64,000 bases of DNA from Halpernia humi (GTDB lineage Bacteria; Bacteroidota; Bacteroidia; Flavobacteriales; Weeksellaceae). Below the pieces are notes generated by a model. The model was given only the letters and a program-made list of their open reading frames with translations, was not told the DNA's origin and did not search any database. Each line of letters starts with the position of its first letter. Position 1 is the first letter of the stretch. The position numbers and the translations under genes are program-made. This document shows positions 6,458-54,881 of the stretch, in pieces. Location: positions 620,001-684,000 of the forward strand of contig NZ_FNUS01000001.1 of the NCBI RefSeq assembly GCF_900108025.1, read 5' to 3'.

Positions 6458-6475
6458 AAAGTTTATTTTTGAAGA

Positions 6476-7234: not shown

Positions 7235-7354
7235 AAAACATTAACTTTACTAAAATTTGCAAGATGGAAAACTTTGAAGAAATTAAAAATAAATTGGTTC
7301 GCGCATTTGGGACAGAAGACAAAATCCTGAAAAATTAAAAAATATTTTAGGAAT

Positions 7355-36714: not shown

Positions 36715-36854
36715 ATAATTTAATGATTTTGAATTTTGATTTTAGTTTAGAAAGATAAACTTCAAATTATTAATTAGTTATAAAGTTACATTTTTTTGAG
36801 ACAATAGAAATGTTTTTTTTAATAATTTTAAAAATTATAGTTATAATTTGATTT

Positions 36855-38261
36855 TTAATTTTGATATAAATCAATATATTTCTGGGCCGAAATTTCCCAA
36901 GAAAAATCTTTTTTCATGTTGGCTTCAACAAGGGTTTTCATTAAATCTTTTTGGCTATAAATATGCATCGCACGATCCATATTATGAATAATTGCATCTA
37001 CGCTTGCTTCGGCAAAATTAATTCCGCAACCGCCAGTAGAAATATCTTCAACCGTATCTTTTAGCCCTCCAATGTAGCGCACCAAAGGAATTGTGCCATA
37101 CCTCATTGCATACATTTGGTTTAAGCCACAAGGTTCTACACGAGATGGCATTAGCAGAAAATCTGAAGAAGCATAAATTTGATGAGAAAGATATTCTTTA
37201 TAGCCTAAATCTAACGCAAAATTTGTAAAAGTATAATTCAAATTTTGTAATTCGCCTTCCAGATGGCTGTTTCCAGAACCCAAAATAATAATATTGAAGG
37301 CACCGTGCATTTGTTGAATACCTCTTTGTACTAATTCTGGCAATAAATCTGCGCCTTTTTCGGTGGCAAACCTTCCAATAAACCCAAACAATGGCAAATC
37401 TGGATTCAAACCATACACTTCACAAAGTGCTTTTTTATTCTTTAATTTTCCTGTGACAGCATTTTTTAAATTAAAATTATAAGTCAACATTTTGTCGGTT
37501 TTAGGATTCCAAACTTCGGTGTCGATTCCATTTATAATGCCGTGCGCTTTTTGGTGCTCTGCTCGAACCAAACTTTCTAAACCTTTAAAATCATGATATA
37601 ATTCTTCCAAATATCCTCCAGAAACGGTTGTGAAAGCAGTGCAACATTTCAACAGACACGCCAAAGGATTGATGTAGCCATCCCAATCCAAAAGCCCCCA
37701 TTTCCATCCATCAAAACGCGGAATGTAATTGCTCATTTCCCATTTCATTTGTCCTTGGTATTCGCCATTGTGGATGGTACCAATGGTTTTCACACCTTTT
37801 AAATAAGAAAAATCTGGGCAATTTTCTATCATAAATGGCACCAAACCTGTATGATAATCGTGGCAATGCAAAATATCTGGCCGAATCTGCATTGCACTCA
37901 ACCAATGCAAAACGCCGTGCTGAAATGCTAAAAATTGCTGACTTTCATCCCAGTAGCCGTAAACATCGTTTCTATCTAAAAGCCCAGGAATCATTACCAA
38001 ATACAATTCAAAACCCAAAGAATTGTGCTTTTCTTTCATCACTTTAACTTGGTACATATTAAAAGATTGGTGAATCCATCCATCAAAAACCACTTCAAAT
38101 TCGTGGTCGTAAAAAAAACTTTTATTGTACCAAGGCATCACAACTTTCGCATCAATGCCTTCTATTTTATTTTGATATTTCGGCAAAGCGCCCACAACAT
38201 CAGCCAATCCACCGACTTTCGCCACTGGATAACATTCCATTGAAAGATGATAAATCGTCAT
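36855..38261 (-). CDS. glgA: Glycogen synthase (ADP-glucose type)
   Basis: 468 residues of family GT5. The N-terminal ADP-glucose site is KVGGLADVVGALPKY. 'GTIHNGEYQGQMKWE' and 'ASSDFLLMPSRVEPCGLNQMY' carry the catalytic-domain residues, including the glutamate of the E-x7-E motif. It elongates alpha-1,4-glucan from ADP-glucose made by the neighbouring glgC product. Its ATG lies 3 bases after the glgB stop, so the two are tightly coupled. Confidence 0.97.
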   Translation of the reverse strand: MTIYHLSMECYPVAKVGGLADVVGALPKYQNKIEGIDAKVVMPWYNKSFFYDHEFEVVFDGWIHQSFNMYQVKVMKEKHNSLGFELYLVMIPGLLDRNDVYGYWDESQQFLAFQHGVLHWLSAMQIRPDILHCHDYHTGLVPFMIENCPDFSYLKGVKTIGTIHNGEYQGQMKWEMSNYIPRFDGWKWGLLDWDGYINPLACLLKCCTAFTTVSGGYLEELYHDFKGLESLVRAEHQKAHGIINGIDTEVWNPKTDKMLTYNFNLKNAVTGKLKNKKALCEVYGLNPDLPLFGFIGRFATEKGADLLPELVQRGIQQMHGAFNIIILGSGNSHLEGELQNLNYTFTNFALDLGYKEYLSHQIYASSDFLLMPSRVEPCGLNQMYAMRYGTIPLVRYIGGLKDTVEDISTGGCGINFAEASVDAIIHNMDRAMHIYSQKDLMKTLVEANMKKDFSWEISAQKYIDLYQN

Positions 38262-38264
38262 AAA

Positions 38265-40253
38265 TTATTTATTTTTTGGGTTTTCTGGTGTTTTTGTCTT
38301 TAATAATTCTTTTTTGATATTTACATTTTTTTTAGGTGGTTTTTTTAGTAATTTTTTCTGTTTTAAAATTATTACAGACAAAGCAGGTAATTTTAAAATA
38401 ATAGCATTTGCGCGGTTCATCCAATGTTCATCTTCTTCATCTACAATTTCGGCTTCTACTCCGCTTCCACCATATTTTTCATCATCAGAGTTTAAAATAA
38501 CCTCCCAAGAAGTGCCTTCGTTCACACCAATTTTATAATCAAAAACACGTGGTGTTAAATTTAAAACCACCATAATGACTTCTTTGTCGTGTTTAGATTT
38601 TCTTAAATAAATATAAATAGAATTGTCTTCGTCATTCGCTTCAACCCATTCAAAACCTGTAACATCAAACTGATTTTCATAAAGTGCTGGTTGGGTTTTA
38701 TATAATAAATTTAATTCTTTTACAAAATTTTGCAAACCTTTATGAACCTTGTGTTCGAGCAAATGCCAATCTAGAGATTGTGTGAAATTCCATTCATTGG
38801 TTTGGCCAAATTCGTTCCCCATAAAGAGCAACTTTGCGCCCGGATGCGTGTACATATAGCCAAAAAGCGCGCGTAAGTTTGCAAACTTTTGCCATTCGTC
38901 TCCTGGCATTTTATATATTAAACTACTTTTTCCATGCACTACTTCATCATGAGAAAGTGGCAACATATAATTTTCATTATACATATACATAGAAGCAAAA
39001 GTAAGTTTATGATGGTCTGATCTTCTGTAAATGGGATCGTTTTTAAAATATTTCAAAGTATCGTGCATCCAACCCATCATCCATTTCATGCCAAAACCAA
39101 TGCCACCATGATGAACTGGTTTAGTTAAAAGCGGAAAATCTGAACTTTCTTCGGCGATTGTAATAATATCTGGAAAGTCTTTATAAACAGCCGTATTAAA
39201 ATCTTGTAGAAATTTTTTGGCTTCTAAATTTACATTTCCACCAAAAATATTGGGTTCCCATTCGCCTTCATTTCTAGCGTAATCTAAATATAGCATAGAA
39301 GTTACGGCATCTACACGCAATCCATCCGCATGAAAACGATCTAGCCAAAAAATAGCGTTTGAAATTAAAAAAGATTTTACTTCAGGGCGTCCATAATTAA
39401 AAATATAAGATTTCCATTCTGGGTGAAAGCCTTTTCTTGGATCTTCATGTTCATATAAATAAGTTCCATCAAAACAATGCAATCCGTTTGCGTCTCCTGG
39501 GAAATGTGATGGTACCCAATCTAAAAAAACACCGATATTATTTTTATGCAATTCATCAATTAAAAACATCAAATCTTGTGGCGATCCAAAGCGAGAATTT
39601 GCAGAATAAAATCCTGTGATTTGATAGCCCCAACTCGGGTCGTACGGAAATTCCATTACCGGCATAAATTCTACGTGCGTAAAATTCATTTCTTTTAAGT
39701 AAGGAACTAATTTTTCAGCTATTTCTCTATAAGAAAAAAACTTTTCTGGTTCATCTGTTCCGCGCATCCAAGAACCGAGATGCATTTCATAGACGGATAA
39801 TGGCGCGGAAAGTGAATTGTTTTTATGTCTATTTTTTTGCCAATCTTCATCCTTCCATTCAAACCAAGTGGAAGTTACAACAGAGGCTGCTTGAGCACTT
39901 TGTTCCATACTAAATGCAAAAGGATCACTTTTTTCTAGCAAAATATTGTTCTTTGTTAAAATACCATATTTATAAGTGGTTTGCAAATTTACTTCTGGTA
40001 TAAAACCTTCCCAAATCCCCGATTGATCCCACCGGGGAAACAAAGGATGGCTATAAGAATTCCATTGGTTAAAATTCCCAATAACAGTAACTAACTTTGC
40101 GTAAGGCGCCCAAACAGCAAAATAAATCCCTTTTACACCGTTCAATTCTGCCTCGTGAGAACCAAATTTTTCGTATAATCTAAAATGTTGTCCTTCTTTA
40201 AACAAATAAATATCATGTTCCGTGAAAAGTGAAAACGGCGCTACTTCTTGCAT
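38265..40253 (-). CDS. glgB: 1,4-alpha-glucan branching enzyme
   Basis: 662 residues. An N-terminal CBM48-type beta-sandwich ('VTVIGNFNQWNSYSHPL') is followed by a GH13 barrel with nucleophile Asp in 'GLRVDAVTSMLYLDY', acid Glu in TIAEESSDFP, and 'LPLSHDEVVHGKSSLIYK'. A beta-rich C-terminal domain comes next, then a Lys/Pro-rich tail of about 28 residues that looks unstructured. It introduces alpha-1,6 branches into glycogen. It is the first gene of the minus-strand glycogen group and is divergent from the CBM48-esterase gene, with 186 bases between the starts. Confidence 0.96.
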   Translation of the reverse strand: MQEVAPFSLFTEHDIYLFKEGQHFRLYEKFGSHEAELNGVKGIYFAVWAPYAKLVTVIGNFNQWNSYSHPLFPRWDQSGIWEGFIPEVNLQTTYKYGILTKNNILLEKSDPFAFSMEQSAQAASVVTSTWFEWKDEDWQKNRHKNNSLSAPLSVYEMHLGSWMRGTDEPEKFFSYREIAEKLVPYLKEMNFTHVEFMPVMEFPYDPSWGYQITGFYSANSRFGSPQDLMFLIDELHKNNIGVFLDWVPSHFPGDANGLHCFDGTYLYEHEDPRKGFHPEWKSYIFNYGRPEVKSFLISNAIFWLDRFHADGLRVDAVTSMLYLDYARNEGEWEPNIFGGNVNLEAKKFLQDFNTAVYKDFPDIITIAEESSDFPLLTKPVHHGGIGFGMKWMMGWMHDTLKYFKNDPIYRRSDHHKLTFASMYMYNENYMLPLSHDEVVHGKSSLIYKMPGDEWQKFANLRALFGYMYTHPGAKLLFMGNEFGQTNEWNFTQSLDWHLLEHKVHKGLQNFVKELNLLYKTQPALYENQFDVTGFEWVEANDEDNSIYIYLRKSKHDKEVIMVVLNLTPRVFDYKIGVNEGTSWEVILNSDDEKYGGSGVEAEIVDEEDEHWMNRANAIILKLPALSVIILKQKKLLKKPPKKNVNIKKELLKTKTPENPKNK

Positions 40254-40439: not shown

Positions 40440-41543
40440 ATGAAATTTAATTTAGAAACTTCTGAAGAAGATGGCCGATCCATCTATCTTACAGGAAATT
40501 TCAACAAATGGAACCCCAAAGACGACAATTATAAACTCCATAAAGTAGAAGAATCCAAATATGAAATTGTGGTAAATGACGAAGTTTTACCCGATAAAAT
40601 AGAATATAAATACACAAAAGGTGGCTGGGAAAGCGTAGAAATAGATAAGTACGGCAATATAATGCCCAATCGAAAAATTGCAAAATCTAAAGCAAAAACA
40701 AATGATTTCGTGCAGAAATGGCGATTGAATTGGGGGCCTTTTAAAGATGAATTTTTCCCAATTGCAGAAGTGATTTCAGAAAAATTCTATATTCCGCAAC
40801 TAGAAAAATACCGAAAGGTCTGGGCACTTTTGCCTTATGATTACTATACTTCTACCAAAACCTACCCCGTTTTGTATCTACAAGATGCCCAAAATTTATT
40901 TAATGAAGGTGCAGAATATGGCAACTGGGAAATTGATAAAAAATTAGCTCTTTTAGCAGAATACAATCGTGGAGACGTGATAGTTATCGCCATAGAACAC
41001 GGCCACGAAGAGCGCATAAAAGAATATATTTTTGATAATGACACTGTCATAAAAAATGCAGAAGGCAAAAAATATATTCGCTTTATTACCGATACTTTGA
41101 AGCCTTTTGTAGACGAAAAATACCGCACTAAAAAAGACCGCGATAATACAGGAATTGGCGGTAGTTCTTTGGGTGCGTTAATCAGTATTTATAGTGGCTT
41201 TCTCTACCCCGAAGTTTATTCTAAATTAATGCTTTTTTCGCCGTCACTTTGGGTAGAACCACAAAATAATTTCCCGATGTTGAACTTTAAACATCCTTAT
41301 AAGATGAAAATCTATTTGTACGGTGGCGGAAAAGAGGGATCAAAAATGGTAAAAAGAATAAATAAATTTTCCAAGTCATTAAATCAATTAGAAATTGATA
41401 AAGTTTATGATTTTGAAACTAAAATTAATATTAATCCCGATGGGCAACATCAGGAGTTTTATTGGTCGCAAGAATTTCCACGCGCTGTGGAATGGCTGTA
41501 TTATGATTTATTGGTAGATCCCACAAAAAAAATTAAAAAGTAA
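40440..41543 (+). CDS. Alpha/beta-hydrolase (esterase D-like) with N-terminal CBM48-like domain
   Basis: 367 residues. Residues 1-75 resemble a glycogen-binding CBM48/AMPK-beta module ('SIYLTGNFNKWNPKDDN', 'KIEYKYTKGGWESVEID'). Residues 110-360 form an esterase D/enterochelin-esterase-like hydrolase with nucleophile elbow GSSLG (Ser243), a likely acid near 'YLYGGGKEGS', and histidine in 'NPDGQHQEFYW'. It has no signal peptide. It is divergent from glgB and 7 bases upstream of the aminopeptidase, opening the ligase cluster. It could hydrolyse an ester or peptide-like product, possibly at a glucan surface. A 14-codon reading frame (40409-40450) overlaps its start. Confidence 0.8.
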   Translation: MKFNLETSEEDGRSIYLTGNFNKWNPKDDNYKLHKVEESKYEIVVNDEVLPDKIEYKYTKGGWESVEIDKYGNIMPNRKIAKSKAKTNDFVQKWRLNWGPFKDEFFPIAEVISEKFYIPQLEKYRKVWALLPYDYYTSTKTYPVLYLQDAQNLFNEGAEYGNWEIDKKLALLAEYNRGDVIVIAIEHGHEERIKEYIFDNDTVIKNAEGKKYIRFITDTLKPFVDEKYRTKKDRDNTGIGGSSLGALISIYSGFLYPEVYSKLMLFSPSLWVEPQNNFPMLNFKHPYKMKIYLYGGGKEGSKMVKRINKFSKSLNQLEIDKVYDFETKININPDGQHQEFYWSQEFPRAVEWLYYDLLVDPTKKIKK

Positions 41544-41550
41544 AATTAAA

Positions 41551-42966
41551 ATGATAAAAATATATCCAGAATCTGAAAACCAAGTTTCCCAAAAATTCCA
41601 TTTTATTTCAGAAAAAGATTGGGAAAGCGAACAAGAAAATTATCCGAAAAATACTGGGCATTTCTTTTCAGGAAAAAAGAAAGAAATTTTTGCAATTAAT
41701 AAAGATAATTCTACAGTTTATATAATTGGAACTGGAACGCTTTCTGAAGATGTAGATTATCAAGAAATTGGAAATTATTTTGCGCAATCTCAAAAGAAAA
41801 ACTTGCAGGCAACAAGCACTGAAATTATTTCCGAAGGATTGAATTTTAATCAAACTTATGAATTGATAAAAGGACTATTTCTAGGCACCTACAACTACCC
41901 TTTTAATTCTGAACATCCATTCTGGCAAGACGGATTTAATTTAATTATCAAAAATTTTTCAACTGAAGATCTTAGTAAAATTGCATCGGAAACAGCTGCG
42001 CTTTGCAAAGGACAATTCGCGTGTATGGATTGGCTGAATAAACCAGCCAACTTTAAGCGAGCACCGATGATTACTAATTATTTAAAAACTTTAGCCGAGA
42101 AATATGGGCTTGAACTGGAAATATTTAATAGAAAACAATGTGAAGAAAAGGGCTTAAATGCTTATCTTTCTGTGAACCAAGGTAGCGCGGAAGAAGCGGC
42201 ATTTTGTATCATTAAATATAAATCTACTAATGCAGAAAAAAACCTCGGTTTAGTAGGAAAATGTGTGGTTTTTGACACCGGTGGAATTTCCATTAAAGGC
42301 AATGCAAATTTACACTACATGAAAAGCGATATGGGCGGCGCAACGGCAGTTATCGGCACTATAATTACCGTTGCAGAAAGAAAATTACCAATCAATATTA
42401 CCGTCATTTTACCAATCACAGACAATGCGGTTTCTAACAAGTCTTATTTGCCGAGCGACGTCATAAAAGCCTACAACGGGAAAACTATCGAAGTTATTGA
42501 TACCGATGCAGAAGGAAGAATGACATTAGCAGACGGACTATCTTATATGGTGAAAAATTATAAGCCCGATATTTTGATAGATTTGGCCACTTTAACGGGA
42601 AGTGCCGTTCGACTTCTAGGAAATACGGCAGGCGCACTTTTTGGAAATAATGAAGATTTGATAAAAAATCTGGAAAAATCTGGTATTTCAACCAACCAAA
42701 AATTATGGAATTTACCGATGTGGGACGTTTGGCGAGAAATGCTTTCCACAGATGTCGCGGATATTAAAAATTTACCGTCATCGCCCGTTGGTGGCTGTAT
42801 TACGGCTGCAAAATTTTTAGAAGAATTTATAGAAAAGCATCCGAATTGGGCGCATTTAGACATCGCAGGCGTTGCTTTCGGAAAAGTAAATTATGCAAAA
42901 GAATATGCGGCAACCGGATACGGCGTTCAATTGTTGATAAATTATATCGAAAAAATTTGCAAATAA
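41551..42966 (+). CDS. Leucyl aminopeptidase family protein (M17)
   Basis: 471 residues. The C-terminal catalytic domain keeps the M17 two-metal ligands and catalytic residues: Lys237 and Asp242 (VGKCVVFDTGG), Lys249, Asp260 (KSDMGGA), Asp319, Glu321 and Arg323. The usual NTDAEGR signature reads DTDAEGR (Asp317 for Asn). M17 enzymes remove N-terminal residues from peptides, and some cleave dipeptides. Placed second in the ligase cluster, it may trim or recycle the cluster's product or may be a general peptidase. The spacing of 7 bases argues for co-transcription with the esterase. Confidence 0.92.
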   Translation: MIKIYPESENQVSQKFHFISEKDWESEQENYPKNTGHFFSGKKKEIFAINKDNSTVYIIGTGTLSEDVDYQEIGNYFAQSQKKNLQATSTEIISEGLNFNQTYELIKGLFLGTYNYPFNSEHPFWQDGFNLIIKNFSTEDLSKIASETAALCKGQFACMDWLNKPANFKRAPMITNYLKTLAEKYGLELEIFNRKQCEEKGLNAYLSVNQGSAEEAAFCIIKYKSTNAEKNLGLVGKCVVFDTGGISIKGNANLHYMKSDMGGATAVIGTIITVAERKLPINITVILPITDNAVSNKSYLPSDVIKAYNGKTIEVIDTDAEGRMTLADGLSYMVKNYKPDILIDLATLTGSAVRLLGNTAGALFGNNEDLIKNLEKSGISTNQKLWNLPMWDVWREMLSTDVADIKNLPSSPVGGCITAAKFLEEFIEKHPNWAHLDIAGVAFGKVNYAKEYAATGYGVQLLINYIEKICK

Positions 42967-43076
42967 CGAAATTTAGAGAATACACAGATTCTTTGAATTT
43001 TCAATAAAAAACCCTTTAAATAGTTGCATTTTAATTTAAAATAATTTAAAATTGTAGTAGTATAAAAATTATTACA

Positions 43077-44282
43077 ATGGAGAATACATTTGTTTGCATA
43101 TCTTGTTACTATAAAGGCAGTGAGTTTTTGGAAGAATTAAAACATTTGGGCAACAAAGTCATTCTCATCACGTCCGAAAATTTAAAAAATAGAAAATGGC
43201 CGTGGGATTCTATTGATGAGGTTTACTATATGCCAGAAATAAAACCAGCGATTTGGAATCTCGAGCATTTGGTGCAAGGCTTTAGCCATCTAATGAAAAT
43301 TCACCAAATAGATGCTGTAGTCGCACTAGATGATTATGATGTAGAAAAAGCAGCAATGCTTCGCGAAACTTTCAGAATTCCTGGGATGGGGCAAACCACA
43401 CATCGGTATTTTCGAGATAAACTTGCCATGCGCCAAATGGCAAAAGATTCTGGCATAAATGTACCTGAATTTTGCTCCGTTTTTAACGATGTTAAATTAA
43501 CTGATTTTTGTGATAAAAATCCTGCGCCTTGGGTTTTAAAACCTCGGTCTGAAGCCTCTGCTAGTGGTATTCAAAAAATTAATTCTAAAAAAGAATTGTG
43601 GGAAGCATTAGATAAATTAAAAGAAGAACGCTATCTTTTTCTTTTAGAAACTTACAAGCCAGGCCGTGTTTTTCATGTGGATAGTTTGGTGTATAATAAA
43701 GAAATTGTATTTACTTCTGCCGCACAATACCTTTCTCCACCGATGAATGTCGCACACGATGGTGGTGTTTTCAGAACCCGAACTTTAGGCCGATATTCTG
43801 ATCATTTTAAAAATCTAGAAATAGAAAACAGAAAAGTTTTAGAAAATTTTGGTTTAAAAAATGGCGCCACGCATACCGAATTTATTTTGGGAGATGATGG
43901 AAAATGGTACTTTTTGGAAACTTCTTCCAGAGTCGGCGGTGCGCATATTCCAGATCTAATTGAAGCATCTAGTTCTATAAATATTTGGCACGAATGGGCA
44001 AAAATTGAAACGGCTTTATTACGAAATACAAAATATGAAGTACCAAAACCGACGGGTTTTTACGCAGGCTTAATTGTTTCATTAGCAAAGGAAAAAAATC
44101 CAGATATTACAGAATTTCAATGTGATGAGGTGTATAAATTTAAAGATTTAGACTATCATATCGGAATCGTATATAAATCTGACAAAGAAGAAATCATTCA
44201 AAAAAAATTAGATGAAGCGACAGAAAAAATTATTGATCACGTGCTAAATATTATCCCGCCACAATCTAAACCAACCAGTTAA
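43077..44282 (+). CDS. ATP-grasp ligase (biotin-carboxylase-like fold)
   Basis: 401 residues. The N-terminal pre-ATP-grasp domain starts 'VCISCYYKGSEFLEELKHLG'. The ATP-grasp core has 'YFRDKLAMRQMAKDSGINVP' (near 120), the ATP lysine in PWVLKPRSEASASGI (near 155), and the metal-binding carboxylates in 'WYFLETSSRVGGAHIP' (near 280). It is cytosolic. The closest architecture is that of the L-amino acid ligase/carbamoyl-phosphate-synthase-like enzymes that join a carboxylate to an amine via an acyl phosphate. The substrate is unknown. It is preceded by a 110-base spacer and followed 17 bases later by an esterase. Confidence 0.88.
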   Translation: MENTFVCISCYYKGSEFLEELKHLGNKVILITSENLKNRKWPWDSIDEVYYMPEIKPAIWNLEHLVQGFSHLMKIHQIDAVVALDDYDVEKAAMLRETFRIPGMGQTTHRYFRDKLAMRQMAKDSGINVPEFCSVFNDVKLTDFCDKNPAPWVLKPRSEASASGIQKINSKKELWEALDKLKEERYLFLLETYKPGRVFHVDSLVYNKEIVFTSAAQYLSPPMNVAHDGGVFRTRTLGRYSDHFKNLEIENRKVLENFGLKNGATHTEFILGDDGKWYFLETSSRVGGAHIPDLIEASSSINIWHEWAKIETALLRNTKYEVPKPTGFYAGLIVSLAKEKNPDITEFQCDEVYKFKDLDYHIGIVYKSDKEEIIQKKLDEATEKIIDHVLNIIPPQSKPTS

Positions 44283-44299
44283 AAAATTAAATAAAATAT

Positions 44300-45010
44300 A
44301 TGCCAAAAATAGAGCACACAGATTATTATTCCCATATTTTGGGTAAAAGTTTAAAGGTAGAAGTCACGGGACATTTCGGCTATCCGATTATTATGTTTCC
44401 TACCTCAAAAGGACAATACACGCAAAATCATGACTTCCATTTGAATGGCAGCATTGATTGGTTTGTGGATCAAGGAAAAGTAAAATTATTCAACATAGAA
44501 ACAATTGATGAAATAAGCCTTTATAATAAATCCGTTTCGCCAGAAGAACGAATTAGAAGATATGATTTATATGTTCAATTTTTAATTCAAGAATTTATTC
44601 CTTATATTCAAAAAATACATCAAACACATCGTGTTGCAGTTGCAGGCGCAAGTTTTGGTGGCTATCACGCCGCGAACTTTGCTTTTAGGTTTCCAGATGT
44701 AGTGTCGCATTTATTTTGCCTTTCTGGTGCATTCACCATCAGAGATTTTATGGACGGCTTTGAAAGTGATAAAGTCTATTTTAATTGTCCGAGAGAATTT
44801 GTAAAAAATGATGAGGCCTGGAAGTATAAACACATGCACATTGTTTTAAGCACTTCAGACCAAGATATATGCTTGGCTCAAACAAAAGAAATGGCAGTTA
44901 TTTTAGCCCAAAAAGGCATAAACCATTGGTATGATGAGCAAAAATGGATCAACCACGACTGGCCACTTTGGCGCATGGTTTTCCCAATATTTATCGGGAG
45001 ATTTTTCTAA
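44300..45010 (+). CDS. Esterase-family alpha/beta-hydrolase
   Basis: 236 residues, single domain. The nucleophile elbow is GASFGG (Ser118), and the charge-relay histidine is probably in 'WINHDWPLWRM' near the C-terminus. The aspartate is likely in 'STSDQDICLAQ'. It resembles the putative-esterase (PF00756) family and lacks a signal peptide. It sits between two ATP-grasp ligases and is the second hydrolase of the cluster, so a role in releasing, transferring or editing an acylated product is plausible. The reaction is unknown. Confidence 0.85.
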   Translation: MPKIEHTDYYSHILGKSLKVEVTGHFGYPIIMFPTSKGQYTQNHDFHLNGSIDWFVDQGKVKLFNIETIDEISLYNKSVSPEERIRRYDLYVQFLIQEFIPYIQKIHQTHRVAVAGASFGGYHAANFAFRFPDVVSHLFCLSGAFTIRDFMDGFESDKVYFNCPREFVKNDEAWKYKHMHIVLSTSDQDICLAQTKEMAVILAQKGINHWYDEQKWINHDWPLWRMVFPIFIGRFF

Positions 45011-45051
45011 CAAAACACAACAATATTAATAAAACATAAACAAAAAACATT

Positions 45052-46026
45052 ATGGCTAAAAATGAAGATAAAACAGTGAAAAAAGTCGGAATTTTATTCG
45101 GGATGGAAGATACATTTCCGTGGGCTTTTATAGATAAAGTAAATGAAATGGGAAATGGTGAAATCGTTGCAGAAGCCGTAACGATTGATAAATTAGAACA
45201 AGGCGCAGATTCTGGTTATGCCGTGATAATTGACCGTATTTCGCAAGATGTTCCATTTTACAGAGCCTATCTAAAAAATGCTGCCGTAAGCGGAACTTAT
45301 GTCATTAACAATCCTTTTTGGTGGAGCGCAGATGAGAAATTTCTAAATAATGCATTAATGACAAAAATTGGAATTCCGCTTCCAAACACCGTTCTTCTGC
45401 CATCAAATGATCGGCCGACGAACACTTCTGAAACCTCTTTTAGAAATTTAAAATTTCCTTTAGATTGGGAATATATTTTTGAATACATCGGATTTCCCGC
45501 GTATATGAAACCACATGATGGTGGCGGTTGGAAAAACGTGTACCGCGTAGAAAGCCCAGAAGATATGTGGGAAAAATTAGGCGAAACCGAGCAATTGGTA
45601 ATGATGCTACAAGAAGAAATTGTGTTTGATGACTATTACCGTGTTTATTGTTTAGGTCAAAAATATGTTCATATCATGCCTTATGAACCAAGAAATCCGC
45701 ATCATTTGAGATATGTGACGGAATCTAAATATTCTGGTAAAAAATTAGAAGACATTCTAAAAGTAATCCACGATTATACGATAAAAATGAATGAACATTT
45801 GGGATACGATTTTAATACTGTAGAATTTGCAGTAAAAGACGGCATTCCTTACGCAATAGATTTCTGTAATCCTGCGCCAGATGCAGATAAAAACTCAGTT
45901 GGCGAAGAAAATTTCGCTTGGATTGTGGAGCATTCAGCAAAATTAGCCATCGAAAAAGCAAAAGAATACGTGCCAGGAAAAGTCAATATTTCATGGGGTA
46001 ATTTTGTAAAAAATTCTATTAAATAG
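45052..46026 (+). CDS. ATP-grasp ligase, RimK/glutathione-synthetase-like
   Basis: 324 residues. The Rossmann-like N-terminus is 'KKVGILFGMEDTFPWAFID'. ATP-grasp elements are 'YIGFPAYMKPHDGGGWKNV' (ATP lysine, near 160), 'MMLQEEIVFDDYYRVYCLG' (near 188), and the magnesium-binding 'GIPYAIDFCNPAPDAD' (near 265). The N of the usual E-x-N motif is kept, but the acid is Asp (DFCN). It is a predicted carboxylate-amine ligase of unknown substrate. It is flanked by the esterase and the YbdK-type ligase, all on one strand with gaps of about 40 bases. Confidence 0.87.
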   Translation: MAKNEDKTVKKVGILFGMEDTFPWAFIDKVNEMGNGEIVAEAVTIDKLEQGADSGYAVIIDRISQDVPFYRAYLKNAAVSGTYVINNPFWWSADEKFLNNALMTKIGIPLPNTVLLPSNDRPTNTSETSFRNLKFPLDWEYIFEYIGFPAYMKPHDGGGWKNVYRVESPEDMWEKLGETEQLVMMLQEEIVFDDYYRVYCLGQKYVHIMPYEPRNPHHLRYVTESKYSGKKLEDILKVIHDYTIKMNEHLGYDFNTVEFAVKDGIPYAIDFCNPAPDADKNSVGEENFAWIVEHSAKLAIEKAKEYVPGKVNISWGNFVKNSIK

Positions 46027-46062
46027 AAAAAAATGTAAGGTGAATAATTAAAAAACACAAAT

Positions 46063-47169
46063 ATGAATCATATATTCACAATCGGTATCGAAGAGGAATA
46101 TCAGATTATTGATCTTGAAACCCGCGATCTGGTTTCCCACGTTTCTAAAATTATTGAAGGCGGCAAAGCAGTTTTAAGTGAAAATTTAAAACACGAAATG
46201 CACGAATCTATGGTAGAAATGGAAACGGGTATTTGCCAAAATATCAAGCAAGCAAGACAAGAACTGACGGACTTGCGCCGACATTTAATAAAAACTGCAC
46301 ACGAACAAAATTTGCGCGTTGCTGGTGGAGGAACTCATCCATTTTCTAATTGGAAAAACAATACTATAACGCAGCAAGACAGATATAGCAAAATAGTAAG
46401 CGATATGGGCGATGTGGCACGTGGAAATTTAATTTTCGGTCTGCACGTTCACGTAGGAATTCCAAACCGAGAGGAAGGCGTGAGAATTCAAAATGTAATG
46501 CGGTATTTCTTACCTCACGTTTACGCGCTTTCTACCAATTCACCCTTTTGGATTGGCAGAAATACGGGCTTTAAATCTTACCGTCAAGAGGTTTTTGTAA
46601 AATTCCCAAGAACCGGAATTCCTAGTTTTTTCAATAGTTTAGGTGAATTTGATAGTTATGTAGAACTTTTAGTAAAAACAGGAACTATTGATAACGCAAA
46701 GAAAATTTGGTGGGATTTGCGAGTACATCCATTTTACCCAACCATAGAATTCCGTATTTGTGATATGCCGATGCGATTAGACGAAACCGTTTGCCTCGCA
46801 GCGATTATGCAATGTTTAGTAGCAAAAATATACAAACTTCATCAGCAAAATTTAAGTTTTCGCTCCTATCGAAGATTACTATTAAATGAAAATAAATGGC
46901 GCGCCGCAAAAGACGGAATTAACGCTCTTTTAATTGATTTCGGTAAAGAAGAGCAAATTCCATACGTTGATTTACTTAAAGAATTACTAGAATTTATTGA
47001 TGATGTTGTGGACGAATTAGACTGCAGAAAAGAAGTAGAATACGCTTGGGAAATTATGAAAAATGGCAGTGGCGCAGACCGTCAATTGCGCATATTCAAA
47101 GAAACTGGTAGTTTAGAAAAAGTCGTTGATTATATGATTACTGAAACTGAACATGGAATTAATTTATAA
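46063..47169 (+). CDS. Carboxylate-amine ligase, YbdK/GCS2 family
   Basis: 368 residues of the glutamine-synthetase fold. The metal-binding glutamates are in GIEEEYQIID (Glu10-12) at the N-terminus. 'MVEMETGICQN', 'AGGGTHPFSNW', 'FGLHVHVGIPN' and 'WWDLRVHPFYPTIEFRICD' follow, as in glutamate-cysteine ligase 2. It makes an amide bond through an acyl phosphate. E. coli YbdK has weak glutamate-cysteine ligase activity, but the native substrate of most relatives is not known. It is the only non-ATP-grasp ligase in the cluster. Confidence 0.93.
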   Translation: MNHIFTIGIEEEYQIIDLETRDLVSHVSKIIEGGKAVLSENLKHEMHESMVEMETGICQNIKQARQELTDLRRHLIKTAHEQNLRVAGGGTHPFSNWKNNTITQQDRYSKIVSDMGDVARGNLIFGLHVHVGIPNREEGVRIQNVMRYFLPHVYALSTNSPFWIGRNTGFKSYRQEVFVKFPRTGIPSFFNSLGEFDSYVELLVKTGTIDNAKKIWWDLRVHPFYPTIEFRICDMPMRLDETVCLAAIMQCLVAKIYKLHQQNLSFRSYRRLLLNENKWRAAKDGINALLIDFGKEEQIPYVDLLKELLEFIDDVVDELDCRKEVEYAWEIMKNGSGADRQLRIFKETGSLEKVVDYMITETEHGINL

Positions 47170-47184
47170 AAATTTAAATATTAG

Positions 47185-47192
47185 TACTTTTG
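47185..47192 (+). promoter_or_regulatory. Possible internal -7 box in the ligase cluster
   Basis: TACTTTTG matches TAnnTTTG, 20 bases before the amidotransferase start. It could give the last two cluster genes their own promoter. No -33 partner is evident. Confidence 0.4.
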
Positions 47193-47212
47193 TGCTTTAA
47201 AATTAGAGATTT

Positions 47213-48043
47213 ATGAAAGAGATTAGAATCGCACTTTTGGATATGAATTACAATCATGTAAACCAAGGGATGCGAAATATAAAAGAAATATCCGAACGCT
47301 TCAAAGAATATAATGAAAACACCGTAAACATCACTTATTTTGATGTTCGCTACAAAAATGAAATGCCTAATGTAAAAGATTTCGACATTTTTCTTTCTTC
47401 TGGTGGACCAGGAAATCCGCACAAAGAAGGTTACGAATGGGAAGCCAAATATTCAACTTTTCTAGATGAACTTTGGAATCATAATAAAAAAAATGAGCAG
47501 AAAAAATATGCCTTTTTAATTTGTCATTCTTTCCAGATTGCTTGTATTCATTGGTCTTTAGGAAATATTTGCAAGAGAAATTCTTATTCTTTCGGCGTTA
47601 TGCCAATTCATAAAACCGACGAAGCAAAAAAATATTTTCTTTTTGAAAATTTACCAAATCCTTTCTACGCCGTAGATTCCCGCGCCTATCAATTTATCGA
47701 GCCCAATGTGGAACGCTTTGAAGAACTCGGAATGGAAATAATGGCTTTAGAAAAAATGCGGCCACACATTCATCGTGAACGCGCTATAATGGCCGTTAAA
47801 TTTTCAGAAGAAATTTTTGGTACGCAATTTCATCCAGAAGCAGACCCATTCGGAATGATGGAAAATTTGAAAGATGAAACCAACAGAAAAGCCATGATTG
47901 ATAATTACGGCATGGAAAAATACTTAGAAACTATCGACAGGATGAATGATGAAGATAAAATTATTTTAACACAAGCCCAGATTTTACCAAGATTCCTCAA
48001 TTTTGCATCCCAACAAATTTTAAAAGAAGTTAGCCTTTGCTAA
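47213..48043 (+). CDS. Class I glutamine amidotransferase-like protein
   Basis: 276 residues. The catalytic triad is visible as Cys104 (FLICHSFQ), His207 and Glu209 (GTQFHPEAD), with the oxyanion strand 'FLSSGGPGNPH' near residue 61. It should release ammonia from glutamine. It is unfused, so the ammonia must go to a partner, presumably one of the neighbouring ligases. A C-terminal helical extension of about 60 residues (216-276) may mediate that contact. GAT-I proteins can also act as peptidases (for example gamma-glutamyl hydrolases), which would fit the cluster too. Confidence 0.9.
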   Translation: MKEIRIALLDMNYNHVNQGMRNIKEISERFKEYNENTVNITYFDVRYKNEMPNVKDFDIFLSSGGPGNPHKEGYEWEAKYSTFLDELWNHNKKNEQKKYAFLICHSFQIACIHWSLGNICKRNSYSFGVMPIHKTDEAKKYFLFENLPNPFYAVDSRAYQFIEPNVERFEELGMEIMALEKMRPHIHRERAIMAVKFSEEIFGTQFHPEADPFGMMENLKDETNRKAMIDNYGMEKYLETIDRMNDEDKIILTQAQILPRFLNFASQQILKEVSLC

Positions 48044-48050
48044 ATTTATT

Positions 48051-49235
48051 ATGATAAAAAAATACAGAGACCAATTCAATTTGGAATTTACAGCAGAAAA
48101 ATATGCCGAAGTTCATCAACTTTTAAATGAAAAATCTGGCATAGATGTCGCTTTTCGCTTATCAGAAAGTCCGATTTTTTTACCTAAATCCTTTCAGGAA
48201 AAATTATTAGATGCATCAAAATCCATCATTTCACAGGTAAAAAAGATGTCGCCAGAAGAATTGGATAAAGCCATTCCAGATAGTTGCCGTGTTCCAAATG
48301 ATACCGCAAAACCACATTTTTTAGCCATAGATTTTGGTATTTGTAAAACAAATGATGGCGAAATCGCTCCTCAATTAATTGAATTACAAGCCTTCCCAAC
48401 ATTGTATGCTTTTCAAAAAGTATATGATGATATTGTGACGGAAGTGTATCCTTTTTTAAAAGACGTAAAAAATCCGCCGAGCAAGGTAGATTATGTGCAG
48501 ATTTTAAAAGATGTCATTGTTGGCGACGAAAATTCTGAAAATGTAATCTTATTAGAAATTTATCCCGAAAAACAAAAAACCGCAGTTGACTTTGCATTAA
48601 CAGAGAAATTTTTAGGAATTAAAACGGTTTGTTTAACAAAGATTAAAAAAGAAGGCAAAAAATTATTTTACGAAAATGATGGAAAATTAATCCCGATTAA
48701 TCGTATTTATAACCGCGTTATTTTTGATGAATTAGAAAATCTTCCAGACTTAAAAACCGAATTTGATTTCCGTGAAGAAGTCGATGTAAAATGGATCACG
48801 CATCCGAATTGGTTTTTTAAAATTTCTAAATACATTTTGCCAAAATTAGTACATGCATACGTACCAAAAAGTTATTTTTTAAATGAATTTCCAACGGATG
48901 AAAATTTAGAAAATTTTGTATTGAAACCATTATTTTCTTTTGCTGGCGCAGGTGTAAATCTAAATCCAACGCAAGAAGTGATCGATAAAATTTCTGATAA
49001 AGAAAATTATATTTTACAAAGAAAAGTAACTTACGAACCTTTATTTAAAGACATTAATGGCGATTTTTCTAAAGCAGAAGTTCGACTTTTATACTTATGG
49101 AAAGAAGATGAAGCCGAACCAATTTTAATGGACAATCTTGTGAGAATGACGAAAGCCGCGATGGTAAACGTAGATTTTAATAAAAAAGACGCCATCTGGA
49201 TTGGAAGTTCTAATGCGTTTTTTGCTGAAGATTAG
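48051..49235 (+). CDS. ATP-grasp-like protein, apparently circularly permuted
   Basis: 394 residues, family not firmly recognised. A metal-site-like segment 'PQLIELQAFPTLYAFQ' occurs early (near 127). ATP-binding features occur late: 'FVLKPLFSFAGAGVN' (near 288), 'YILQRKVTYEP' (near 325), 'EVRLLYLWKED' (near 345) and 'NLVRMTKAAMVNV' (near 365). This reversed order is that of circularly permuted ATP-grasp enzymes such as the glutathionylspermidine-synthetase group. It ends the cluster, 7 bases after the amidotransferase, so it is probably another amide-forming ligase. A copy of its last ~25 bases recurs at 49691. Confidence 0.6.
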   Translation: MIKKYRDQFNLEFTAEKYAEVHQLLNEKSGIDVAFRLSESPIFLPKSFQEKLLDASKSIISQVKKMSPEELDKAIPDSCRVPNDTAKPHFLAIDFGICKTNDGEIAPQLIELQAFPTLYAFQKVYDDIVTEVYPFLKDVKNPPSKVDYVQILKDVIVGDENSENVILLEIYPEKQKTAVDFALTEKFLGIKTVCLTKIKKEGKKLFYENDGKLIPINRIYNRVIFDELENLPDLKTEFDFREEVDVKWITHPNWFFKISKYILPKLVHAYVPKSYFLNEFPTDENLENFVLKPLFSFAGAGVNLNPTQEVIDKISDKENYILQRKVTYEPLFKDINGDFSKAEVRLLYLWKEDEAEPILMDNLVRMTKAAMVNVDFNKKDAIWIGSSNAFFAED

Positions 49236-49313: not shown

Positions 49314-49670
49314 ATGAAAATATCCGTTTTTTTGTTAATTTTATGTACTTTTATTTTGAATAGTTGCTATGTTTATAGACCTGAAGAAATAAAAAAAGGA
49401 GAAAAGCCACTTACAATTCAGGAACAATTGAAGCCAAATAATATTTACAAAATTGATGTCAATAATAAAACTTACTTAATAAAAGCCTTAAAATGGGACA
49501 AAGATTCTCTCTCTGCTCAAATAAATTTAAAAAAAGACATCAGAAAGAATTTTGCAGCCAACCAAATTACCAACGTTAGAGAGCGCAAATTTTCAGATAG
49601 TCGCTCAAATTTCCTTACGGTAATTTCTTATATTGCAGTTGGCGTTGGGGTTTATTTATTGGTAAAATAG
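49314..49670 (+). CDS. Small lipoprotein of unknown function
   Basis: 118 residues with signal peptide and lipobox LNSC (cysteine at about residue 18). A short charged domain follows, with 'IYKIDVNNKTYLIKALKW' suggesting beta-strands, and a C-terminal hydrophobic stretch ('FLTVISYIAVGVGVYLLV') that could be a membrane anchor. No family is recognised. It lies between two copies of a 15-base sequence, one of which is the tail of the preceding gene, which suggests it was inserted there. Confidence 0.7.
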   Translation: MKISVFLLILCTFILNSCYVYRPEEIKKGEKPLTIQEQLKPNNIYKIDVNNKTYLIKALKWDKDSLSAQINLKKDIRKNFAANQITNVRERKFSDSRSNFLTVISYIAVGVGVYLLVK

Positions 49671-49739
49671 ACGGCAATTTGTAATGAAAGTCTAATGCGT
49701 TTTTTACTGTGGATTTAAAAATATTTACACTCAAAAAAA

Positions 49740-50237
49740 ATGAAAATAAATATCTTCTTAGCCCTACTTTTTTTCTTGCCTAATATTATTTTAAGCCAAG
49801 ATTTGGATGATTTCACCAATGCAAATACAAATACAGGAAACGTAAAAATACCTGGAAAGTGGGAGAAATTAAATAAAAGTGATGATTCTGGGCAAATATT
49901 TTTTAAAAACAAAGAAGGAATAATTATTGCAATTGCGAAAAATCCTAAGAACGCTTACCCTTTCTATCAAAAGGAAAAATCTGACTTTGAAAATGTGCAA
50001 GAATTTTATAAATGGGATTCAGATTATATTAAATCAAATAATATTGATACTGAAAAACTTAAGGAAAATTCTGAAAAAAAATACATTATTTGGAAATACA
50101 ATGATAAAAAATCAGATAATGTATTTCTTCTTGGTTCTGTGGCAAACAATTTTATCAATTTACTTATCTATACAGATATTTGGCCGGAAGATAAGAAAAT
50201 TGAATTTTTAGAAAATTTATACCAAATTAATAAATAA
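49740..50237 (+). CDS. Secreted hypothetical protein
   Basis: 165 residues with a cleavable signal peptide (about 1-20, ending ILSQ). The rest is a soluble, Lys/Asn-rich domain with 'VKIPGKWEKLNKSDDSGQIF' near the start and a hydrophobic C-terminal strand 'VANNFINLLIYTDIW'. No family is recognised. It is the last plus-strand gene before a bidirectional terminator and the convergent cphA. Confidence 0.65.
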   Translation: MKINIFLALLFFLPNIILSQDLDDFTNANTNTGNVKIPGKWEKLNKSDDSGQIFFKNKEGIIIAIAKNPKNAYPFYQKEKSDFENVQEFYKWDSDYIKSNNIDTEKLKENSEKKYIIWKYNDKKSDNVFLLGSVANNFINLLIYTDIWPEDKKIEFLENLYQINK

Positions 50238-50302: not shown

Positions 50303-52927
50303 CTAACCCTGCGTTTCCTGCATTTCCTTCAACTGATATTGTTGCACCAATTCAATCGCATTTGATACCACATCGCTCAAAGCCGTGATATAAGTGCCTT
50401 CTTCTGCCATGCTCATCGCGTGTTTTAAGGCTTCAATTTCAACAGGGATGATTTCGTAGGATACTTCTCTACCAGAACTATTTATCCCATCGATGATTAA
50501 AGCATTTATTTCTTCTTCGGCTCTTCCGCGTAAATGTTTTTCATTTCTGATTATTATATTGTCAAACATTCTCCCTGCAATTTTCCCACATTCGCGGATG
50601 TCTTCATCTCTCCTATCACCCACGCCAGAAATTATGCCTATTTTTTTGGTGGCATCTACAGATTTCAAATAGTCTTCGATGGCCTCATAACCTGCAGGAT
50701 TATGAGCAAAATCTATTAAAACTTTAAACTTTTTGAAATTAAATACATTTAATCTTCCCGGTGTAAGTTCTGCACTTGGCACGAAAGTCTTTAAGGCCAA
50801 AGAAATATCTTCTATTTTAAAACCATAAAGAAAACAAGCCAAGGTCGCTGCCAAAACATTAGAAATCATAAATTTAGCCTTTCCTTCCATCGTGATTGGC
50901 ACTAAAATGGCGCGTTCAATTCTAATTTTCCAGTCGCCTTTTTTGATCGTGATAAAGCCCTCTTCGTAAACGCAAGTTGTTTTCCCTTCTTTTGCGGCTT
51001 TCTTAATATGCGGATTTTTTTCATCTAAACTAAAAAGCGCGACTTTGCAATGTAAATCTGTCGCAATTTTCATAGAATACTCATCATCTGCATTTAAAAC
51101 CGCCCATCCAGATTTTTTTATACTATCTAAAACAACCCTCTTTACTTTGGTTAAATCTTTCAACGAATGAATATCATTTAAACCCAAATGGTCTTCTTTA
51201 ATATTAGTCAAAACCCCGATATCACAAGTGTTAAATCCTAAACCAGAACGCAAAATACCGCCGCGAGCAGTTTCCAAAACCGCAAACTCAACGGTTGGAT
51301 CTTTCAGCACAAATTCTGCCGAAATTGGGCCAGTTGTATCACCTTTGCTCAACATTGTATTTTGGATATAAATACCGTCAGACGTCGTAAAACCGACTCT
51401 GTAGCCATTATTTTTTACAATATGGGAGATTATTCTGGTCGTTGTAGTTTTTCCGTTTGTCCCAGTTACTGCAATAATCGGTATTCTAAATTCTTTGCCT
51501 TGCGGGTAAAGCATATCCACAATTGGTGCGGCAACATTTCTTGGTAAACCTTCAGACGGCGCCAAATGCATTCTAAAACCTGGCGCGGCATTTACTTCTA
51601 AAACTGCGCCGCCACTGTCTTTCAAGGGTTGCGTTAGATTTTCTGCCATAATATCAATTCCACAAACATCCAAACCTATAATTCTTGAAATTCTTTCCGC
51701 CATCATAATATTTTCGGGATGCACCATTTCGGTAACATCGATAGAAGTTCCGCCAGTAGAAAGGTTTGCAGTAGATTTTAAATAAATTATTTCACCTTTT
51801 TGAGGAACTGTTTCAAGGGTGTAATTCAATTTTTCTAAAAGTTCTTTGGTATCTTTTTCAACTAAAATTTCTGTTAAAACATTTTCGTGACCATAGCCTC
51901 TGCGTGGATCTGTGTTTTCTAGATCTATTAATTCTTGAATATTTTTTGTGCCATCACCTACAATATGTGCAGGAACGCGCCTTGCAGCGGCAACCATTTT
52001 ATGATTGATCACTAAAATTCTAAAATCGTAACCTGTGATGTATTTTTCAACGATAACCTTTCGGCCGTATTGCTGTGCGTGTTCTAAGCCCACTTTTGCC
52101 GTTTCAAAATCGTTGACGTTAATAGAAGAGCCTTTTCCGTGATTTCCATCTAAAGGTTTAATCACAATTGGGTAGCCAATTTTTTTTATTACCCTTTCTA
52201 AATCTTCTTGATCCACAACCAAATCTCCTGTAGGAACTGGAATGGCTGCTTCATCCAACATATTTTTTGTAAGTTCTTTATTACAAGCAATATCAACTGC
52301 TATAGAACTTGTAAGACCTGTAATAGTCGCTTGAAACCTTTGCTGATTTTTGCCATAACCTAGTTGCACCAAAGAATTTCTACCCAGTCTGATCCAAGGG
52401 ATATTTCTAGAAACCGCTTCTTCCACAATACTTCCTGTGGATGGCCCCAATCTTTCGCGTTCTCTTATTTCTTTTAATTTATGAATGCAAGCATCAATAT
52501 CGTACTCTTTCGCCTCGATAAGCGCTTCTGCTATCTTTACGGATTCTTCCGCCGCAAAAACACCCGCTCTCGCTTCTAAATAACTAAAAACTACATTGTA
52601 AACACCTTTTGTTTTTGTTTCGCGAGTTCTTCCAAAACCAGTATCCATGCCTGCTAAAGTTTGGATTTCCAAAGCAATATGTTCAATCACATGCCCCATC
52701 CAAGTTCCCATTTCTATTCTTGAAAAAAAACCACCTTCTACGCCTTCAGAACATCTATGTGTAATTAACGAAGGAATTAGGGCTTCAATCCTTTCCCGAA
52801 AACCTTCAATTTTATTGGTGGGAAAATCTTCCAATTCTTCCAAATCCAAGCGCATTTGGATGAGTTTAGGGCGTCGGATACTCCAAATATTTGGACCTCT
52901 TAAAACTTGGATTTTTTCAATTTTCAT
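50303..52927 (-). CDS. cphA: Cyanophycin synthetase
   Basis: 874 residues, the standard length. The N-terminal domain ends near residue 160. The ATP-grasp domain follows, with 'YPIVIKPLDGNHGKGSSIN' and metal-site segment 'AVLEVNAAPGFRMH'. The Mur-ligase-like domain begins with Walker A GTNGKTTTTRI near residue 487 and has 'LIDFAHNPAGYEAIEDYL'. CphA adds Asp to the backbone and Arg to the side chain, building the multi-L-arginyl-poly-L-aspartate nitrogen store. cphB and an isoaspartyl peptidase lie divergently next to it. Confidence 0.95.
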   Translation of the reverse strand: MKIEKIQVLRGPNIWSIRRPKLIQMRLDLEELEDFPTNKIEGFRERIEALIPSLITHRCSEGVEGGFFSRIEMGTWMGHVIEHIALEIQTLAGMDTGFGRTRETKTKGVYNVVFSYLEARAGVFAAEESVKIAEALIEAKEYDIDACIHKLKEIRERERLGPSTGSIVEEAVSRNIPWIRLGRNSLVQLGYGKNQQRFQATITGLTSSIAVDIACNKELTKNMLDEAAIPVPTGDLVVDQEDLERVIKKIGYPIVIKPLDGNHGKGSSINVNDFETAKVGLEHAQQYGRKVIVEKYITGYDFRILVINHKMVAAARRVPAHIVGDGTKNIQELIDLENTDPRRGYGHENVLTEILVEKDTKELLEKLNYTLETVPQKGEIIYLKSTANLSTGGTSIDVTEMVHPENIMMAERISRIIGLDVCGIDIMAENLTQPLKDSGGAVLEVNAAPGFRMHLAPSEGLPRNVAAPIVDMLYPQGKEFRIPIIAVTGTNGKTTTTRIISHIVKNNGYRVGFTTSDGIYIQNTMLSKGDTTGPISAEFVLKDPTVEFAVLETARGGILRSGLGFNTCDIGVLTNIKEDHLGLNDIHSLKDLTKVKRVVLDSIKKSGWAVLNADDEYSMKIATDLHCKVALFSLDEKNPHIKKAAKEGKTTCVYEEGFITIKKGDWKIRIERAILVPITMEGKAKFMISNVLAATLACFLYGFKIEDISLALKTFVPSAELTPGRLNVFNFKKFKVLIDFAHNPAGYEAIEDYLKSVDATKKIGIISGVGDRRDEDIRECGKIAGRMFDNIIIRNEKHLRGRAEEEINALIIDGINSSGREVSYEIIPVEIEALKHAMSMAEEGTYITALSDVVSNAIELVQQYQLKEMQETQG

Positions 52928-53126
52928 GGGAAATATATCGCTTTTAGAATATTAATGATTATTTATTTTCAAATATAGTGTAAAGCTTTGAAAAACGAAA
53001 CAGTGTTTTTATAAAAATTATGTACTAATGTTACGGAAATATTGAAAATTTGAAAAATGTGATATTTATACTAATATTTACGAGTTTTAAACAAATCTTT
53101 TTCTAAAATTAATTAAATTTGCTGTC

Positions 53127-54014: not shown

Positions 54015-54047
54015 TTTTTTTACTTAAAAATTTTCTACCTTTAAAAA

Positions 54048-54821: not shown

Positions 54822-54881
54822 AATAAGTTGAATCTAACGTCTCAAATCTAATATCTAACGTCTCAAAATCTAGCATTAAAA

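Follow-up and report, generated by a model that had tools for sequence, protein, structure and literature searches.

An eight-gene cluster of ligases and hydrolases

The DNA under study, referred to as the window, is a stretch of 64,000 nucleotides from contig NZ_FNUS01000001.1 of Halpernia humi (Weeksellaceae, Bacteroidota). At positions 40440-49235 it contains eight intact open reading frames (ORFs) on the plus strand, separated in cluster order by 7, 110, 17, 41, 36, 43 and 7 bases. Five of them, E2, AG2, YbdK, GAT and AG3, form a conserved core whose members tend to be inherited together. The family labels are based on Pfam and NCBIfam profile matches; these profiles allow no firm assignment of the strongly diverged AG2 and AG3, which were placed by predicted structure.

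40440..41543, plus strand: E1, Fes/esterase-D-type serine esterase with a CBM48-like N-terminal domain that stays below threshold (PF00756, 3.7e-24)
41551..42966, plus strand: M17, leucyl-aminopeptidase-type metallopeptidase (PF00883, 3.8e-103)
43077..44282, plus strand: AG1, ATP-grasp_4 ligase of the amino-acid ligase type (PF13535, 5.1e-09)
44300..45010, plus strand: E2, small alpha/beta-hydrolase, core member (PF00756, 9.6e-09)
45052..46026, plus strand: AG2, ATP-grasp ligase with predicted RimK/LysX fold, core member (RimK, Z 21.9)
46063..47169, plus strand: YbdK-type carboxylate-amine ligase of the GCS2 family, core member (PF04107, 4.5e-66)
47213..48043, plus strand: GAT, protein of the class I glutamine amidotransferase fold (PF00117, 9.9e-10)
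48051..49235, plus strand: AG3, ATP-dependent ligase with predicted YgiC/Gsp-synthetase fold, core member (YgiC, Z 25.9; Gsp, Z 25.4)

A first-pass annotation, made from the letters alone, had described the same eight plus-strand genes, spaced 7 to 110 bases apart, and the ORFs are indeed present there. Its family labels were mostly confirmed by Pfam and NCBIfam, and its view that several of the proteins are carboxylate-activating amide ligases is supported. Two labels have to be put more cautiously: the CBM48 domain of E1 is below threshold, and AG3, taken for a permuted ATP-grasp protein, agrees better with the fold of YgiC, Gsp and the eukaryote-type glutathione synthetases. A test for a graspetide or another ribosomally synthesised and post-translationally modified peptide yielded no precursor peptide gene in the gaps of the cluster, which leave no room for one, as the annotation had also noticed.

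Co-inheritance of the core in Bacteroidota

The distribution of the core was determined in 148 Bacteroidota genomes, with E-value thresholds of 1e-60 for YbdK, 1e-30 for GAT, 1e-15 for E2 and 1e-40 for an M29 peptidase that is treated below. AG2 was found in 60 genomes at 1e-3, two of them weakly; these two matches (G007 and G087, 33-34% identity) were dropped and kept only in the comparison with cyanophycin synthetase. A 26-residue AG3 fragment of G047 was dropped as well. E2 was then present in 63 genomes, AG2 in 58, YbdK in 52, AG3 in 49 and GAT in 40.

All 58 genomes with a strong AG2 also contained E2, and AG2 and AG3 were jointly present in 48 (Fisher 1e-27). The most frequent combinations were all five genes (28 genomes) and all but GAT (18), followed by E2-AG2-GAT (6), E2 alone (5), E2-AG2-YbdK-GAT (4), E2-AG2-GAT-AG3 (2), YbdK alone (1) and YbdK-AG3 (1). 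AG3 occurred in 40 of the 45 genera with AG2. When the genomes were collapsed to 83 genera, every pair was still significant, the weakest with 4.5e-06. The observed agreement of each of the ten core pairs exceeded that in all 5000 shuffles within families. In some genomes, core members are unlinked yet jointly present, as in G031 with GAT on contig C3 and AG2, YbdK, AG3 and one E2 on contig C56. This co-occurrence beyond chance, even of unlinked genes, is the strongest evidence for one shared function, and it is strongly supported that the core genes belong to one pathway. The cluster had been proposed to be one functional unit, a proposal that a lack of co-occurrence would have spoken against; for the core, the opposite was observed.

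Gene order and lineage-specific members

Gene order was compared in the best 80 of at least 590 matches to the AG3 profile, in which close relatives are over-represented, and in a second set of AG2 neighbourhoods from 40 of the 60 AG2-positive Bacteroidota genomes. Among the best 80, all eight genes were found in 29 of the 32 loci of the Chryseobacterium group and in none of the 48 others. The exceptions were L073, a short contig, and the Kaistella locus L090, in both of which only E1 is missing, and L103, which retains four genes. The order AG2-YbdK-AG3 on one strand was kept in 66 out of 66 loci of this set that hold all three. The five core genes were together in 31 of the 48 loci outside the Chryseobacterium group, and 29 had an E1-like esterase (c5); AG2 was missing from the stretch examined in 14, some of which at least come from short contigs. 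In the Verrucomicrobia loci L116 and L142, E2, AG2, YbdK, an M29 peptidase and AG3 are clustered.

M17 was present in none of these 48 loci and an AG1-like protein in only one; AG1 was also seen in fetched loci of families f16 and f5. Among the homologues in the fetched loci, the N-terminal domain of E1 was covered only by those of the Chryseobacterium group. This domain, M17 and, with few exceptions, AG1 thus belong to that group. The eight-gene set is a feature of one lineage, and the conserved core is E2-AG2-YbdK-GAT-AG3. The expectation that the families stay together is therefore borne out for the core, in many Bacteroidota and some Verrucomicrobia, but not for the set of eight, which among the 80 loci occurs in the Chryseobacterium group alone.

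A variant of the cluster occurs in five families, where AG2 or GAT adjoins a circularly permuted ATP-grasp protein (c14; PF14403 in L066) and YbdK and AG3 are absent or located elsewhere. The permuted protein stands beside AG2 and GAT in L065, L066, L068, L069, L185 and L186, and some clusters of this variant also carry a further esterase and AG1. Among the other recurrent neighbours, K10 (short-chain dehydrogenase/reductase), K11 (ATPase of an ATP-binding cassette transporter) and K25 (TrpS), all named from their sequences, look generic.

Properties of the hydrolases E1 and E2 and the ligases YbdK and AG2

E1 aligned with E. coli Fes over 56 residues (BLAST, 4e-05). The best matches of its N-terminal domain, AMPK1_CBM (E 0.0057) and CBM_20 (E 0.0072), were below threshold. 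In E2, Ser118 and His219 are nearly invariant and Asp189 is invariant in 13 aligned rows, and we assign these residues as a putative catalytic triad. Many of the weaker E2 matches (E 1e-58 to 1e-80) are not linked to the other genes and could represent paralogues. One in-frame stop was observed inside the E2 matches of G013, G034, G131, G079, G133, G125 and G137 and in a second match of G099; either the match overruns a natural stop or these copies are broken.

YbdK exceeded the NCBIfam cut-offs of NF010039 (537.1 versus 371 bits) and TIGR02050 (307.6 versus 176.4 bits), like known carboxylate-amine ligases of this type. A BLAST alignment of 353 columns with E. coli YbdK showed 28% identity. 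The 16 kb around E. coli ybdK, in contrast to the cluster, contain no gene annotated as ATP-grasp or GAT.

AG2 gave no Pfam match and only a weak one to NCBIfam rimK_fam (TIGR00768), with 27.8 bits far under the curated cut-off of 143.4. Its mean column identity was 55% in an alignment of 17 rows, the 16 other rows being 50-85% identical to the window copy. Its predicted model (predicted local distance difference test, pLDDT, 86.7) was closest to RimK with Z 21.9 (264 residues, 3.0 Å), followed by ArgX/LysX with Z 20.8 and Ddl with Z 19.1. AG2 would accordingly share the fold of RimK, LysX and ArgX (Z 20-22), but no LysW-like carrier was recognised among the recurrent neighbours inspected.

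AG3 is related to YgiC and Gsp

The only profile match of AG3 was Pfam GSP_synth, below the gathering score (20.5 versus 29.3 bits, E 3e-4). For its predicted model (pLDDT 90.0), the top-ranked structures in Foldseek were glutathione synthetases, together with a putative Gsp synthase. In VIA-align, with Z differences under 1 regarded as ties, the highest values were obtained for YgiC with Z 25.9 (341 residues, 3.4 Å), Gsp with Z 25.4 (344 residues, 3.7 Å) and YjfC with 25.2, followed by homoglutathione synthetase with 24.5, and these matches span nearly the whole model. Eukaryote-type glutathione synthetases reached Z 23.8-24.5 and Cp1B Z 22.2. A BLAST alignment with E. coli YgiC showed 29% identity over 93 columns (3.5e-04).

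Residues 316-332 of Gsp include an Asp, a Glu, an Asn and the RxD-motif Arg, all of which have functional roles. In one MAFFT alignment, Asp94 and Glu111 of AG3 align with Asp318 and Glu330 of Gsp. Judged by model and alignment, AG3 appears to be a relative of Gsp and YgiC in both fold and sequence; it is not filed as a glutathionylspermidine synthetase because of an exchange of Asn for Gln and of Arg for Ala or another residue.

In PMC12568646, YgiC and YjfC are cited as peptidylpolyamine synthetases, and the fold relative Cp1B is the pseudodipeptide-forming ATP-grasp enzyme of E-64 biosynthesis. YgiC is described as lacking the activity of Gsp in PMC12506659. As far as these sources go, the fold relatives vary and the fold serves diverse acids and amines, so that a polyamine as the substrate of AG3 is a guess.

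At one locus (L157, positions 4637-7240, plus strand, genome G125), AG3 continues the reading frame of a preceding sodium:solute symporter (PF00474), which is either a fusion, a lost stop or an assembly slip in this single genome. The ORFs of the other loci fetched included no further symporter of this kind, and nothing was therefore made of this lead.

The gene upstream of AG3

Cys104, His207 and Glu209 of GAT are invariant in an alignment of 14 rows. The same-strand gene 5' of AG3 was recorded for 115 AG3 ORFs and was GAT in 86, M29 and YbdK in 6 each, an amidohydrolase in 4 and another gene in 8, with none in 5; the ORF labels missed GAT in L122 and L126, where tblastn finds it, and omitted L157, whose AG3 forms part of a longer ORF. 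GAT before AG3 was found in nine families and in five named groups, possibly with some lineages counted in both, and the two genes overlap by four bases in L034-L037, L039 and L040.

The M29 and amidohydrolase genes in this slot were identified by Pfam. M29 occupies it in f17, f28, Verrucomicrobia and Ignavibacteria, and the amidohydrolase in f22 and f25. The six sampled genomes with M29 (G055, G093) or amidohydrolase (G027, G043, G059, G101) before AG3 have no GAT. In L152-L155, likewise from genomes without GAT, a YtcJ-like amidohydrolase (PF07969) directly precedes AG3 with a median gap of -4. The presumed metal ligands of M29 are retained according to our reading of the alignment. As the slot is taken over by M29 or amidohydrolase in genomes without GAT, a hydrolytic step is favoured, and by analogy GAT probably hydrolyses an amide. 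The amidation proposed in the first-pass annotation would imply an ammonia-donating GAT; the replacements point more to hydrolysis.

M29 was also considered as a general substitute of GAT and rejected, as only 2 of the 148 genomes carry an M29 of this kind at E 1e-40; it is thus one of several replacements. The YtcJ-like amidohydrolase family additionally occurs near GAT in L048 and L172.

Genes flanking the cluster

Upstream of the cluster, the glycogen genes glgB, glgA and glgC lie on the opposite strand (window 35446-40253), and downstream follows a cyanophycin set of cphA, cphB and an isoaspartyl peptidase (window 50303-55727); the names of the glycogen genes and the peptidase are readings of the sequence. 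Between AG3 and cphA (window 49314-50237) are two short ORFs of 118 and 165 amino acids with hydrophobic N-termini, which matched no Pfam family and had no homologue when the first 40 loci were clustered. A flavobacterial promoter consensus found no match in the stretch of 186 bases that separates glgB from E1. None of the eight cluster proteins matched a PADLOC model at 1e-05, and a reading as anti-phage defence was dropped for that reason.

A proposed cycle of synthesis and cleavage

The combination of carboxylate-activating ligases with adjoining hydrolases suggests a cycle in which a product is built, capped and cut. We propose, with a probability of about 0.45, that the core encodes a single pathway for the synthesis and recycling of a small non-ribosomal peptide of the gamma-glutamyl type. 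Starting from what is established, namely gene content, gene order, co-inheritance, folds and conserved candidate catalytic residues, we infer all substrates, the order of the steps, the polyamine and the hydrolytic role of GAT as follows. YbdK would couple a glutamate-like carboxylate to an amine, and AG2, together with AG1 in this lineage, would lengthen the product by an amino acid. AG3 would activate the free carboxylate and add an amine as a cap, which might be a polyamine. An amide bond of the product would be cleaved by GAT or, in some lineages, by the M29 peptidase or amidohydrolase, while the esterases E1 and E2, joined by M17 in the Chryseobacterium group, may strip acyl groups or trim fragments.

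Gsp makes and cleaves a spermidine conjugate of a small peptide. The hydrolase and AG3 may act like its fused amidase and synthetase, although built from unrelated hydrolase parts. AG3 resembles Gsp, YgiC and YjfC in its predicted full-length fold and the aligned Asp and Glu, and an amide hydrolase often adjoins the ligase; unlike in Gsp, the two are separate proteins here, and the hydrolase is a class I GAT protein, an M29 peptidase or an amidohydrolase. Another parallel is the Puu gamma-glutamyl-putrescine pathway, in which a ligase adds the gamma-glutamyl group and PuuD, a hydrolase of the class I GAT fold, removes it. However, PuuA is of the glutamine-synthetase type, unlike the ligases of the cluster, and BLAST of GAT against PuuD was not significant.

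Several observations weigh against this proposal. Homoglutathione synthetase (Z 24.5) is nearly level with YgiC and Gsp as a match of AG3. Where Gsp has Arg316, AG3 shows Ala92 or a different residue in the one MAFFT alignment, and Gln113 stands in place of Asn332; AG3 thus does not have to bind a glutathione-like peptide or a polyamine. YbdK, AG3 or both are missing in twelve genomes with E2, AG2 and GAT. Of the 19 AG3 genomes without GAT, 12 were examined around AG3; six have M29 or amidohydrolase beside it and six have neither (G001, G023, G079, G125, G128, G137). Unlinked AG3 genes are often adjoined by generic ones (TrpS-like, aminotransferase, M16, MiaE, beta-helix protein), and the retained Cys, His and Glu of GAT would equally serve ammonia supply.

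The last point leads to an alternative in which GAT supplies ammonia to AG3 and the pair amidates the carboxylate of a small molecule. The position of GAT directly 5' of 86 of the 115 AG3 ORFs, the four-base overlaps and the invariant residues are all in keeping with it. On the other hand, GAT is not found at threshold in 18 genomes that have the other four core genes, and M29 and amidohydrolases, families for which we know of no ammonia release from glutamine, fill the slot in the lineages named above. The solved fold relatives of AG3 couple peptides or acids to amines (PMC12568646), and ammonia feeding is considered unlikely. It is distinctly less probable that AG2 adds amino acids to a protein from which the hydrolases remove them, as its fold, nearest to RimK and the LysW-dependent LysX/ArgX, might imply: Ddl, a small-molecule ligase, follows closely (Z 19.1), the rimK_fam score is far below the cut-off, no carrier or target gene was recognised among the recurrent neighbours inspected (ORFs of at least 80 amino acids), and the gaps in the window are too short for a carrier gene.

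The likeness of AG3 to eukaryote-type glutathione synthetases and the GCS2 membership of YbdK could also be explained by a second glutathione-like thiol beside bacillithiol, with YbdK as gamma-Glu-Cys ligase, AG3 as a glutathione-synthetase-like enzyme, GAT and M17 in degradation and E2 as S-acyl-thiol hydrolase. BshC, a marker of bacillithiol, was nevertheless found in all but one of the 148 genomes, regardless of whether they carry the module, and hence leaves no thiol gap to fill; Arg316 of Gsp is not retained in AG3 either, which makes this explanation very improbable. Least credible is an accessory role in cyanophycin storage, suggested by the neighbouring cphA, cphB and isoaspartyl peptidase. 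Among the Chryseobacterium-group loci, cphA flanks 22 of 32 and both glgB and cphA occur in 21 of 32; in 7 of 8 Hymenobacter loci, cyanophycinase-like and isoaspartyl-peptidase-like genes precede the cluster on its 5' side, and GAT is nominally associated with cphA (10/17, p 3.4e-03, uncorrected). In contrast, the cassette has neither cphA nor glgB in the stretch examined in three Epilithonimonas loci, L084 and Elizabethkingia L102, as well as in Kaistella L090, which is also without E1. Cyanophycin synthetase was over the cut-off in 17 of the 148 genomes, nine of them with AG3, so that 8 of the 17 lack AG3 and 40 of the 49 AG3 genomes lack the synthetase (Fisher p 0.06). On this genome profile, a general function of the core in cyanophycin storage was rejected.

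Cyanophycinase was over the cut-off in all 17 genomes with cyanophycin synthetase. In the Hymenobacter loci (L104, L108, L113, L123, L128, L131, L143), the cyanophycinase-like and isoaspartyl-peptidase-like genes are a few kb away from the cluster, in an arrangement unlike that of Chryseobacterium; the stretch examined contains no cyanophycin synthetase.

Relation to earlier work and implications

Iyer et al. 2009 reportedly described ATP-grasp and GCS2 peptide ligases of several folds beside peptidases, as in this cluster, and predicted many ligase-peptidase operons; the cluster may be among these predictions. Literature searches that did not extend to Iyer et al. 2009 found no paper on the cluster, in line with the earlier statement that no characterised pathway is known to have this set. 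The available parts of PMC4431377 and PMC2922099 contain nothing on it. As a whole, the first-pass interpretation of the cluster is partly supported.

The synthesis and cleavage proposed here may, more tentatively, be extended to an undescribed but widespread peptide-type metabolite of Bacteroidota and Verrucomicrobia. It would be made by RimK-fold, YbdK and YgiC/Gsp-fold ligases and cut by interchangeable amide hydrolases, as an analogue of the glutathionylspermidine cycle whose conservation resembles that of a cofactor or stress compound rather than that of a secondary metabolite. The 50-85% identity of the aligned AG2 homologues to the window copy seems high for the latter. Enzymes that are present or absent together, with AG2 in 58 of 148 genomes and always with E2, and all five in 28, mark a real pathway, and the identity of its product would assign functions to several groups of ligases at once.

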